Shown: positions 18,783 through 57,445 of the stretch, one piece after another | Layout: each line of letters starts with the position of its first letter | How positions within the stretch are numbered: the stretch's first letter is position 1 | DNA from: Martelella lutilitoris | GTDB taxonomy: Bacteria > Pseudomonadota > Alphaproteobacteria > Rhizobiales > Rhizobiaceae | Length of the DNA stretch: 64,000 nucleotides | NCBI RefSeq assembly: GCF_005924265.1 | Contig: NZ_VCLB01000004.1 | Location: forward strand, 124,001-188,000 | Direction: 5' to 3' | Position numbers and translations under genes: made by a program | The notes under the pieces: generated by a model | What the model saw: only the letters and a program-made list of their open reading frames with translations | What the model was told of the DNA's origin: nothing | Database searches by the model: none

Positions 18783-20066
18783 ATGAAACGTAATCTCTTC
18801 CCTGTTTTCGCGCTGCTTCTCGGCACGCTCTTCCTTTTCTTCGGCAACGGTCTCCATGGTCTTCTTCTGCCGCTGCGCGGCACGGCGGAAGGCTACAGCG
18901 ACACGGCGCTCGGCTTCATCGGCACGTCTTGGGCATCCGGTTTCGTGCTCGGCTGTCTGTTCGCGCCGAAGCTGATCATGCGCATCGGCCATGTGCGTGC
19001 CTTCGCGGGCTTCATTGCGCTGATTTGCATGGTCGCGCTGATCACCGGCGTGTTCGTCAACCAGTATGCCTGGATCGGGCTCAGGGCTGCCACCGGCTTT
19101 GCCATGGCCGGCACGCAGATGATCATCGAAAGCTGGCTGAACGAGCGGGTCGACAACAAGAGCCGCGGCACGGTCTTCACCTTCTACACCGGCATCACGC
19201 TGTTCGGCGTCGTCGGCGGCCAGCTCGCCGTCGGTTTCGGCAATCCCAACGCGCCGATCCTGTTCATGGTCGCCGGCATTGTCTACTGCATCGCAATGCT
19301 GCCGACGACGGTGTCGAACGCCGCCTCGCCGCGACCGCTTCAGGCCGTGCGGATCGACCTGAAACTGCTCTACCGCAATTCGCCGGTCGCCTTTTTCGGC
19401 GTTCTGCTCACCGGCATCGCCAATGGCGCCTTCGGCACGCTGGTGGCCGTATTCGCCGCGCGCGCTGGGCTTCCCGACAATCAGGTCGCCTTTCTGGTGA
19501 CTGGCGCCATTCTCGCCGGCGCGCTGGCGCAGGTGCCCGTCGGCCGGCTGTCGGATCGGATGGATCGCCGCCACGTGATCGCGGGACTTGCCGGCATTGC
19601 CGCCGCCGCCGCCATCGCCGTTCTCATCCTCAAGCCCGGCAGCACGACGCTGATCGTCCTGATCGCGATCTACGGCGCGACGGCCAACGTGCTTTACCCG
19701 ATCACGGCGTCCCATGCCAACGACTTCGCCCGGCCGGAAGACTATGTGAAGATCGCCAGCGGCCTGCTGTTCCTGTTCGGCGTCGGCACGATCATCGGCC
19801 CGACGGTCGGCGGCCCGGTGATGTCGAGCTTCGGGCCTTACGCCCTGTTCTTCGTCACGGCCACCGCGCATGTGCTGATCCTTGCCTATGCCATCATCCG
19901 CTCACGCATCCGCGCCGCCATACCCGTCGACGAGCGCGACGCCTTCACCGCGATGCCGGATGCCGCCACGCCGGTTTCAACGCCGGAAGGCGTTGCCATG
20001 AAGAACCCGAACCGCGATGCTCCCGCGCAAGAAGATCAGGACAGGAGGGAAGACCATGCCGCTTGA
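18783..20066 (+). CDS. MFS transporter
   Basis: A 427-residue major facilitator with 12 predicted helices; loop motif LSDRMDRRH sits between helices 8 and 9. The start MKRNLFPVF at 18783 has AGGCG seven bases upstream; an ATG at 18756 has none. The C-terminal tail is long and polar (about 45 residues). Its end overlaps the start of the DUF1192 gene by 11 bp, so the two are coupled. The substrate is not predictable; it resembles the YcaD-like branch of exporters. Confidence 0.87.
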   Translation: MKRNLFPVFALLLGTLFLFFGNGLHGLLLPLRGTAEGYSDTALGFIGTSWASGFVLGCLFAPKLIMRIGHVRAFAGFIALICMVALITGVFVNQYAWIGLRAATGFAMAGTQMIIESWLNERVDNKSRGTVFTFYTGITLFGVVGGQLAVGFGNPNAPILFMVAGIVYCIAMLPTTVSNAASPRPLQAVRIDLKLLYRNSPVAFFGVLLTGIANGAFGTLVAVFAARAGLPDNQVAFLVTGAILAGALAQVPVGRLSDRMDRRHVIAGLAGIAAAAAIAVLILKPGSTTLIVLIAIYGATANVLYPITASHANDFARPEDYVKIASGLLFLFGVGTIIGPTVGGPVMSSFGPYALFFVTATAHVLILAYAIIRSRIRAAIPVDERDAFTAMPDAATPVSTPEGVAMKNPNRDAPAQEDQDRREDHAA

Positions 20067-20256
20067 CGACGACAACGAGGCACGCAAACCGCCGAAGGGA
20101 CAGTATATCATCGGCGCGGACCTCGAAGAACATTCCGTCGAGGCGCTGGAAGGCTTTGTCGCGGATCTGCGCCGCGAGATCGAACGCCTTGAGGCAGCCA
20201 TCACCAAGAAGGGCAGCGGCCGCGAGACCGCCGAAAGCTTCTTCAGAAAGAAATGA
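20056..20256 (+). CDS. DUF1192 family protein
   Basis: A 66-residue protein (MPLDDDNEARKPPKGQYIIG) ending in a helix SVEALEGFVADLRREIERLE, the DUF1192 pattern of a short coiled segment conserved in alphaproteobacteria. The ATG at 20056 lies inside the last codons of the MFS gene and is served by AGGAGGGAAG. Function unknown; regularly found near rcdA and cell-cycle genes. Confidence 0.85.
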   Translation: MPLDDDNEARKPPKGQYIIGADLEEHSVEALEGFVADLRREIERLEAAITKKGSGRETAESFFRKK

Positions 20257-20276
20257 CACGCGCCCGGCAGACTCCG

Positions 20277-20292
20277 TTAAACAGATATTAAC
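20277..20292. promoter_or_regulatory. CtrA binding site 1
   Basis: TTAA-N7-TTAAC, an exact match to the CtrA consensus. It sits about 15 bp upstream of a TATAA-like -10 (around 20306-20311), so it covers the -35 region as in CtrA-activated promoters. It would control the predicted small RNA and possibly rcdA. Confidence 0.7.
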
Positions 20293-20311
20293 CTTTCCAA
20301 GGTGTTATAAG

Positions 20312-20399
20312 GCATCCGCCATGCGGAGTCGGGATTTCTGTCTTTATTCCGATCATCACCCTTTGACTTATGAGCCGCCCATCGCGGCTCTTTTTTTTT
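20312..20399 (+). ncRNA. Predicted small RNA between DUF1192 and rcdA
   Basis: About 85 nt from the presumed start behind the CtrA box and TATAA to a strong terminator. Three hairpins can be drawn: TCCGC-CAT-GCGGA (20316-20328), a 7-bp stem TCGGGAT / ATTCCGA with one wobble pair and a 10-base loop, and the terminator GAGCCGC-N5-GCGGCTC with nine T (20372-20399). No reading frame is seen. It may instead be only an attenuated leader of rcdA. Identity with a known alphaproteobacterial small RNA family was not testable here. Confidence 0.5.
20372..20399 (+). terminator. Strong rho-independent terminator ahead of rcdA
   Basis: Stem GAGCCGC / GCGGCTC with 5-base loop and a run of nine T. It ends the predicted small RNA and separates rcdA from the MFS-DUF1192 transcript, so rcdA needs its own promoter near the second CtrA box. 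Confidence 0.88.
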
Positions 20400-20426
20400 G
20401 GGGTTGCGCGCAATCGGCGGTGGGTA

Positions 20427-20441
20427 TTAACCCTTCATTAA
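20427..20441. promoter_or_regulatory. CtrA binding site 2, upstream of rcdA
   Basis: TTAA-N7-TTAA located 98-112 bp before the rcdA start, downstream of the terminator. Fits direct CtrA control of rcdA, as described in Caulobacter and Sinorhizobium. Confidence 0.6.
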
Positions 20442-20538: not shown

Positions 20539-21054
20539 ATGCAGATGACCAGTACCGGGGCAAATCCGATCAATTTCGCGGGACGGGCCGCCAACTCACC
20601 CCAGTTCGAGGCCCTCTATGCCGAAGGCATGACGCTGGTCGAAGAGACGGCCGCCTATCTGGACGGCCCCGGACGGGCCGCCTCGAAACATTTGAACGCC
20701 AAGGCCGCCTCGCTCTATTCCGCTGAATCGATCCGCCTGACCACGCGGCTGATGCAGCTGGCCTCCTGGCTTCTGCTTCAGCGCTCACTCAATTCCGGCG
20801 AAATGACGCGCGAACAGGTGGTGCAGGAGCGCCGCAAGCTGAGGCTCGGCGGCGGCGGAAACGAGGACGAAATCTCCGCCTGGAGCGAACTGCCGCCGGG
20901 CTTCCGCGACCTCGCCGACCACGCGACCCGGCTGGAAACCCGCATCCGCAAGCTGGACGAAAGCCTGATGCGCGAGAACGCAACGCCCGAACCCGCGAAC
21001 AACCAGGTCATCGCCCAGATCGACCTGTTGCAGACGGCCTTTGCGCGGCGATAA
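20539..21054 (+). CDS. rcdA: Regulator of CtrA degradation RcdA (DUF1465)
   Basis: A 171-residue helical protein of the DUF1465/RcdA family. In Caulobacter RcdA is the adaptor that, with CpdR and PopA, delivers the master regulator CtrA to ClpXP. The family segment SIRLTTRLMQLASWLLLQRS is present at residues about 65-85 and the disordered Pro/Asn-rich tail follows the last helix. The start may be the ATG at 20539 or 20545. Two CtrA boxes upstream imply a feedback loop in which CtrA activates its own destruction factor. Confidence 0.88.
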   Translation: MQMTSTGANPINFAGRAANSPQFEALYAEGMTLVEETAAYLDGPGRAASKHLNAKAASLYSAESIRLTTRLMQLASWLLLQRSLNSGEMTREQVVQERRKLRLGGGGNEDEISAWSELPPGFRDLADHATRLETRIRKLDESLMRENATPEPANNQVIAQIDLLQTAFARR

Positions 21055-21128: not shown

Positions 21129-21242
21129 GTCATGCTCGGGCTTGACCCGAGGATCCAGGCCGCACGACAAACAGCTGCAAAAACTGTCCTGGATTCAATC
21201 ATCTGAACCGCCTGGATGCTCGGGTCAAGCCCGAGCATGACG
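21129..21242. repeat. Inverted pair of REP palindromes (CTCGGG type)
   Basis: Two palindromic units facing each other: 21129-21159 (core CTCGGGCTTGACCCGAG) and 21211-21242 (core CTCGGGTCAAGCCCGAG), 50 bp apart. The same type recurs at 25522-25600. Located between rcdA and the TonB receptor, in a 373-bp stretch without genes. Confidence 0.75.
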
Positions 21243-27203: not shown

Positions 27204-27226
27204 CTGTTATACCGGCTGTCACAAGA

Positions 27227-27303
27227 GCGACAGGGGCGCCCGCTAAAGCGGGCTGAGAAGCACCCTTGGAACCTGATCCGGATCATACCGGCGGAGGGAG
27301 TCA
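27227..27303 (+). promoter_or_regulatory. TPP riboswitch (THI element)
   Basis: Contains all hallmark THI-box segments in order: GGGGCGCC, GCTGAGAAGCACCCTTGGA, ACCTGATCCGGATCATACC and GGCGGAGGGAGTC, with the closing helix GAC / GTC. It precedes thiM by 63 bp. Thiamin pyrophosphate binding would lower expression of thiM and thiD. A GGGCC / GGCCC hairpin (27306-27328) between the sensor and the ribosome site may be part of the switch. Confidence 0.95.
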
Positions 27304-27366
27304 CTCGGGCCTTCTCCTCTCCGGCCCGTCCGGCTTTCCCGCTGAAACACGAAAAGGGAGACCGGC

Positions 27367-53003: not shown

Positions 53004-53156
53004 AGCGTTTCCTTCCGCAGCCGCGCAATTGAGACCGCACATCCGTGCTTCTCACGATGACGCAAAAGTCGCCCTGACGATCTCCCACACCAGCCGTGAA
53101 GACAAGGCCCCGTACAACAGCAAATGCTAACGCTTTCATTCTAGCAGAAAATACAA

Positions 53157-53180
53157 AAGGCCGCCGAATTCGGCGGCCTT
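53157..53180. terminator. Terminator of the rpoBC operon
   Basis: A 24-bp perfect palindrome (arms AAGGCCGCCGAA / TTCGGCGGCCTT) with a T-rich tail on the minus strand (TTTTGTATTTTC), 51 bp after the rpoC stop. Confidence 0.88.
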
Positions 53181-53230
53181 CAGTATGGGGGTGTTGGAAA
53201 CGCCCCCGGGCACGCGGCCCAAGCAGGCGT

Positions 53231-57445
<4,215 letters not shown>

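Follow-up and report, generated by a model that had tools for sequence, protein, structure and literature searches.

The DNA ahead of rcdA in Martelella lutilitoris very probably holds a real small RNA gene, and we describe here, as a new finding, that the 3′ core of the predicted RNA is complementary to the ribosome-binding region of a gene for a DUF6101 protein. Judging from sequence comparison across genera, core and target have changed together between lineages. We propose, with moderate confidence, that the locus specifies a free-standing, CtrA-activated, trans-acting small RNA that would pair with and block DUF6101.

Layout and homology of the RNA locus

The motif TTAA-N7-TTAA occurs exactly twice in the window (the whole 64-kb stretch of DNA analysed), against 0.06 copies expected, and none of 100 shuffles of the window contained two; the whole genome of 4.45 Mb has 13 such sites. 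As an earlier note on this DNA had described, the two copies, box 1 at 20277-20291 and box 2 at 20427-20441, flank a stretch with TATAA at its head (20306-20310). This pentamer belongs to a -10-like TTATAA (20305-20310) that lies 28 nt after the start of box 1, so that box 1 occupies the -35 place of the putative promoter, which is the layout of a CtrA promoter. A generic sigma-70 scan of the region found no promoters, with 0.3 expected. The predicted RNA of about 86 nt spans 20314-20399, where its 5′ end is placed just after the -10, and it would end at an intrinsic terminator (20372-20399) with a 7-bp GC-rich stem (hairpin 20372-20390) and nine T (20391-20399), as strong as the earlier note had judged it. 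Box 2 precedes rcdA (20539-21054; 171 aa), whose product was likewise correctly named in the earlier note: it matches Pfam DUF1465 and, at 189.7 bits (cut-off 170), the NCBIfam equivalog NF051867, "protease adaptor protein RcdA". All of these features are on the + strand. Beyond rcdA, and before an opposite-strand TonB-dependent receptor gene, stands an inverted repeat (21129-21160 and 21210-21241; 32 nt, 97% complementary, 49 nt apart) that may be a dispersed palindromic element (21129-21241).

Folding of 20314-20399 gives two stem-loops and the terminator hairpin at -28.0 kcal/mol (z -4.37), with none of 200 shuffles equally good. Stem-loop 1 (UCCGC/GCGGA; 20315-20327, +) corresponds to helix 1 in relatives; it is followed by stem-loop 2 (GUCGGGAU/AUUCCGAU; 20328-20353, +) and by a mostly unpaired core, AUCAUCACCCUUUGAC (20352-20367, +). 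When the 5′ end is moved to 20306, different small stems form ahead of the same terminator (z -2.86), and with 20258 the upstream pairing differs again (z -2.16; 4/200 shuffles equally good). The upstream stems thus vary with the 5′ end chosen, and the terminator is unchanged across all three folds. The three stems counted in the earlier note are obtained if the terminator is included or a longer 5′ end is used; otherwise there are two stem-loops.

A search against Rfam, which the earlier note had suggested, returned RF02356 (BjrC1505) over 20270-20397 at 30.2 bits (E 0.001 for 701 bases), a match that falls below the gathering score of 50. The RNA at 20314-20399 is a divergent homologue of RF02356, although not a member of the Rfam family by Rfam's own score, and searches with the family model within the window's own family and class-wide gave no match for the window's genome at E<=0.001. 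The sole Rfam match above its gathering score in the window is a TPP riboswitch at 27222-27316 (+; 71.5 bits). BjrC1505 was reportedly described in Bradyrhizobium by Madhugiri et al. 2012, and it is said to have been verified there by northern blot; to our knowledge RF02356 is an expressed RNA without known function. The model has one match each in 48 of 61 genomes of the window's family (one genome per genus), 35 of them above the cut-off, and class-wide, under stricter filters, in 29 of 289 genomes. RF02356 and the window RNA share homologous RNA, stem-loops, an exposed core, a GAGCCGC terminator, the place before rcdA and a CtrA-like box. They differ in the core, which is GACGCCUCCCUG in RF02356 and AUCACCCUUUG in the window RNA: the CCUCCC of RF02356 sits in a small hairpin loop, whereas the Martelella AUCACCC is unpaired in the fold and lacks that hairpin.

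We built a second model, R1, on 40 relatives that exclude Martelella and the Agrobacterium-type clade. Its 99 positions all align to 20313-20398, with 35.9 bits and an E-value of 2.6e-6 for the window, and this is the single match in the window's genome at E<=0.001 (E 1.8e-4). The genus Martelella is evidently divergent, since only 4 of its 13 genomes reach E<=0.001 with R1 in genome-wide searches; at the other Martelella loci R1 scores 17.9-30.5 bits (L006-L011 and L013), L012 not being among those listed. A second, weak R1 match at 53150-53263 (-; 18.8 bits, E 0.017 in the window) is absent from the genome matches at E<=0.001 and is probably due to chance. RF00519 (suhB/MmgR) has a similar 3′ module, with an exposed CUCCCU-like core and then a terminator, but its match is confined to 20339-20405 at 26.1 bits, short of its gathering score of 41. 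RF00519 accounts for part of the RNA, while RF02356 and R1 account for its whole length. Between pgk and the MFS gene, the search for suhB/MmgR returned nothing at E<=1.

The predicted stems covary. In a sequence-only alignment of 63 relatives RNAalifold recovered only the terminator, and the first helices of Martelella were visibly misaligned there; for this reason covariation was counted on the 40 relatives, from which Martelella and the Agrobacterium-type clade are absent. Among these, both partners had changed in 12 of the 25 pairs, including 5 of the 6 pairs of the stem-loop 2 helix. Double-changed cells numbered 33, against 5.9 in shuffles (0/500 as many), and further pair types 28, against 24.1 (6/500). 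When the partners were slid along the alignment, pairing fell from 95% to 39-54%. Loss of the stems in relatives, which the earlier note had named as a result that would speak against the RNA, was thus looked for, and the stems are kept. Of 136 loci, 133 have a terminator-like hairpin ahead of rcdA.

The DNA between the MFS gene and rcdA could, in principle, comprise nothing more than the terminator of upstream genes and a promoter for rcdA, with no separate RNA. A small ORF of 66 aa (20057-20257, +) overlaps the end of the MFS gene and ends before box 1, and its end lies about 115 nt before the terminator stem, which would suit such an arrangement. This ORF has no Pfam or NCBIfam match and gave a tblastn match in only 7 of the 12 other Martelella loci; the region as a whole is matched by DNA in 13 of 13 Martelella genomes, and the six named rcdA loci closest to that of the window all belong to this genus. 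The conservation of a CtrA box and a -10 before the stems, the covarying stem-loops, the homology with RF02356 and the conserved core all argue against an account in which no RNA is made, and we regard it as extremely unlikely.

Box 1 and the ownership of the promoter

Box, -10, stems and terminator recur together across many genera, which agrees with the earlier prediction of a separate small RNA gene with a CtrA-type promoter, ending before rcdA. Of 120 distinct relatives, 85 have a strict box 1 where one would be looked for, against 0.35 by mononucleotide shuffles, and 104 have a relaxed form, the shuffle expectation applying to the strict form only. In the 85 relatives with a strict box, offsets 28, 29 and 30 after the box start are T, T and A in 80, 71 and 83 cases, respectively. 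The 13 Martelella genomes all have a strict box 2; a strict box 1 is found in only 7 of them.

The most informative loci are those in which no rcdA was found. Fifteen loci match R1, have at least 1.4 kb of downstream sequence available and show no RcdA there; the count omits two loci whose record ends before the next gene (L138, L154) and one that does not match R1 (L152). Nine of these 15 have a strict box 30-51 nt ahead of the RNA, and with the relaxed form the count is 11 of 15. A very divergent RcdA could have been missed in some of the 15, and in several loci without RcdA other genes plainly adjoin the RNA. Because the box precedes the RNA also where no rcdA was found, box 1 is best assigned to the RNA gene, and the earlier prediction of a separate gene gains from the fact that the box stays with the RNA. 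Four loci outside the window's order (L128, L129, L130 and L132) have the same RNA and a CtrA box with no RcdA nearby. Two of them (L130 and L132) presumably carry the RNA between a quinone oxidoreductase-like gene and a metY-like gene.

These loci also bear on the reading of the RNA as a 5′ leader or attenuator of rcdA, in which transcription from box 1 would read into rcdA and the hairpin would be a conditional terminator. The close association of the two genes favors this reading: of the 30 loci that score highest for RF02356 among the 48 matched genomes of the window's family, 28 have rcdA next. An agrobacterial study that, in its available text, treats extra transcription start sites as secondary sites of rcdA favors it too (PMC10469942). 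However, RNA and box also occur together at loci that showed no rcdA in the adjoining 1.5 kb or so. Box 2 provides rcdA with a site of its own, all three folds keep the same terminator, and an attenuator would leave the conserved core and the DUF6101 partner unexplained. We therefore consider the attenuator reading very unlikely. Class-wide, rcdA follows RF02356 in 14 of 30 loci.

Box 1 is likely to be a CtrA binding site, to judge from its motif and spacing, and both transcription and CtrA binding at this place in Martelella are predicted on the same grounds. According to the available text of one study in Sinorhizobium meliloti, ChIP-seq places CtrA on the rcdA promoter, and rcdA RNA is unchanged upon depletion of CtrA (PMC4433202). 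In three agrobacteria, the available text of another study describes rcdA orthologues with several mapped transcription start sites and possible CtrA sites (PMC10469942). Both sets of data fit a separate RNA under box 1, on the assumption that S. meliloti has the RNA, although neither paper says so in the text available. The S. meliloti depletion result also counts against the scheme proposed below. Our comparisons suggest that CtrA bound ahead of rcdA may serve more than rcdA. The alignment to the RF02356 consensus places the box inside the Rfam model, which begins upstream of it. The model thus seems to start too far upstream, with its 5′ part covering promoter DNA, and part of the consensus structure may itself represent promoter DNA. 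Our literature search, which left most subscription papers outside, found no paper linking BjrC1505 to CtrA or rcdA; the mention of BjrC1505 that it did find is a table entry.

Complementarity to the DUF6101 start region

The core is GACGCCUCCCUGUU in most relatives and GAUUUUUCUCCCUGUUUUACC or close to it in the Agrobacterium/Rhizobium-type clade, both differing from that of the window. Allowing at most 3 mismatches, 23 sites in the window's genome are complementary to the window's own core, the RNA itself included. Among the 19 sites looked at, one stands directly before a start codon, as CAAAGGGUGAUCAG-AUG, and the gene that follows encodes a protein of Pfam DUF6101 (PF19596; contig C1 near 47923 of the window's genome, G000). 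Positions 20355-20365 of the core form an 11-nt perfect complement of the ribosome-binding region of this gene. Complements of the common core in 16 genomes numbered 40 sites including the RNA itself, one site in G049 being the DUF6101 start, and a spaced pattern picked out, besides two further sites, chiefly the RNA and the start of DUF6101 in G079.

The DUF6101 gene is present in 27 of 27 genomes searched and in 30 of 30 further ones. In 14 genera outside Martelella, its start region carries CAGGAAGGC (9 genomes), a near variant (4 genomes: G016, G043, G058 and G078) or CAACAAGGG (G052), and each of these start regions is complementary to the differing RNA core of its own genome. In all 14 the complementarity runs upstream into a GGCTCTC-type stretch that would pair with the next part of the RNA, and in three genomes (G016, G049 and G052) this stretch follows the RNA's own variant. 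For the Agrobacterium/Rhizobium clade a GGTAAAACAAGGG-like stretch at the DUF6101 start was predicted beforehand and was found in the 12 genomes of that clade; for example, one of them (L034 for the RNA, L323 for the target) has CGGCTCTCAGGTAAAACAAGGGTAGAA at the DUF6101 start, where the complement of its RNA is CGGCTCTCAAGGTAAAACAGGGAGAA. Three exceptions (L319, L321 and L326) lack part of the stretch, and the rest of the prediction, for lineages such as Bauldia, Roseibium, Breoghania and Ancalomicrobiaceae, was not clearly borne out, the outcome in the last three being mixed or weak. Other lineages covary in their own way, namely Ahrensia (L046/L332), Notoacmeibacter (L088/L331), L085/L335, L091/L334 and L023/L327. 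In L064, L070 and L083 the match to DUF6101 (L337, L336 and L340) seems to lie at the start codon and the first codons rather than at the Shine-Dalgarno sequence.

Permutation of partners among genomes supports this covariation, with the qualification that the permutations described here take no account of relatedness. For a 46-nt RNA segment in 57 genomes, pairing with the genome's own DUF6101 averages -42.1 kcal/mol, against -34.1 (sd 0.73) for permuted partners (0/5000 as good). By plain alignment score in 44 of the 57 genomes, a test that leaves out 13 with pairing at the start codon, unclear or unanchored, the values are 41.0 and 30.6 (sd 0.95; 0/20000). Sixteen clade representatives also gave 0/20000, although these were hand-picked after the sequences had been seen, and the tests on 57 and 44 genomes are less selected. 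When Martelella and the Agrobacterium clade are set aside, permuted partners in the remaining 14 genera were as good in 71/20000 (0/2000 with slightly different segments), and within Martelella the own pairing beats swapped pairings modestly (22/2000). Outside Martelella the DUF6101 gene starts were set by hand or by the expected protein start, and in four loci (L333, L345-L347) the start could not be anchored. The own pairing is weaker than the mean swapped pairing in 7 of the 57 genomes (L333, L339, L340, L347, G001, G005 and G006), and better by less than 2 kcal/mol in 5 more (L319, L338, L342, L346 and G007). Complementarity to the translation-start region of a target, conserved here across 57 genomes with these exceptions, is a hallmark of trans-acting small RNAs.

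When the RNA is folded jointly with each of 323 gene starts sampled from the window's genome, DUF6101 ranks first, at -20.2 where the mean is -5.4, and it is second with a 16-nt core and fourth with the 46-nt segment, ranks that are not independent evidence because the target was found by its match in this genome and the sample contains the gene itself. With a 32-nt core ranked against the same 323 starts, DUF6101 comes first in G012, 7th in G003, 10th in G000, G002, G009, G010 and G011, and 11th in G004, and it ranks low in 5 of the 13 Martelella genomes (G007, 50; G001, 54; G006, 127; G008, 189; G005, 192).

The same statistics weigh on a different target. The RNA might act on ctrA (or gcrA) mRNA through its C-rich core and so close a CtrA feedback loop, as is described, in the available text, for the Caulobacter crescentus RNA CcnA, whose CCCC loop pairs with GGGG in the leader of each of these mRNAs (PMC8959179). 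AAGGGGA stands just before the ctrA start in 25 of 29 genomes, and ctrA ranks 10/323 by joint folding in the window's genome. Its rank falls to 61/323 with a 20-nt core, however, and there is no covariation: permuted partners were as good in 4250/5000 for ctrA (27 genomes) and in 376/5000 for gcrA (20 of 22 genomes located), and neither is favored as the main target. We consider a regulator of this kind unlikely, and an additional weaker effect of the RNA on ctrA is possible.

The start region of rcdA ranks 146/323 by joint folding and is not a predicted target; its own pairing is slightly better than swapped pairings (84/5000), possibly through relatedness. The suggestion in the earlier note that the RNA and rcdA form a CtrA feedback unit is not supported, given this rank, a linkage to rcdA that is not constant, and a covarying partner that is DUF6101.

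A proposed CtrA branch

CcnA, as described in the available text of PMC8959179, is a noncoding RNA of C. crescentus, presumably activated by CtrA, that acts on the ctrA and gcrA leaders and for which no clear homologue was found in S. meliloti. Compared by description rather than by sequence, CcnA and the window RNA are both small RNAs for which a CtrA site is predicted in the promoter, and in both a C-rich site serves, or in the window RNA would serve, for action on translation-start regions. CcnA differs in its length (182 nt against about 86 nt), its place (at the replication origin rather than before rcdA) and its targets (ctrA and gcrA rather than DUF6101). GspR (SmelC775) of Sinorhizobium is another trans-acting small RNA of the same order linked to CtrA. 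It has, in the available text of PMC5928217, a length of 143 nt, a location between SMc03844 and SMc03845, a distribution limited to Sinorhizobium and no known promoter signature, and it down-regulates ctrA; its different location and its restriction to Sinorhizobium led us to reject it as a counterpart. SmelC691/sra57, an S. meliloti RNA of 83 nt, was likewise rejected, being grouped with SmelB053, which has as its second loop a GGAUGUA that is absent from the window RNA.

We favor the following scheme. Phosphorylated CtrA on box 1 (20277-20291) would turn on transcription from about 20314, which would end at the terminator (20372-20399) ahead of rcdA, and rcdA would be driven separately from box 2. 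The core (20352-20367) would then cover the Shine-Dalgarno region of DUF6101 mRNA and stop its translation, and DUF6101 would be made when CtrA is low. The RNA would thereby depend on CtrA and follow the timing of the cell cycle. A strict CtrA box near DUF6101 itself was seen in none of 57 loci.

The RNA probably switches DUF6101 off, the choice of repression over activation being drawn from the position of the pairing. It is conceivable that the pairing is real but that the mRNA acts on the RNA as a sponge, or that the pairing activates DUF6101. In the other genera the complementarity extends over about 30 nt and takes in the left arm of the terminator hairpin, so that the hairpin would need to open, and pairing of that extent could destabilise the small RNA. 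In Martelella, however, the pairing lies mainly at the Shine-Dalgarno sequence and reaches to a few nucleotides before the start codon, the usual place for repression, and we think a sponge or an activator quite unlikely.

We know of no function for DUF6101. We found no relative among solved structures and no NCBIfam model, its neighbor genes were uninformative, and our literature search, with most subscription papers outside its reach, found no paper naming it. A broader reading is that an RNA of the RF02356 type, as a local counterpart of CcnA, forms an order-wide branch of the CtrA network in which CtrA would activate the RNA and the RNA would repress DUF6101 at its translation start. In that case DUF6101 would act in the cell cycle of the Hyphomicrobiales, a role so far unrecognised, and Martelella would have rewired both the core and the target site while keeping the link. 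We put this forward tentatively, at somewhat less than even chances, since support from beyond the window's own family is mixed. These comparisons place the 5′ boundary of RF02356 better, predict CtrA as its regulator and give it a candidate target whose pairing appears to co-evolve in many genera, and DUF6101 becomes a protein worth testing in the cell cycle.
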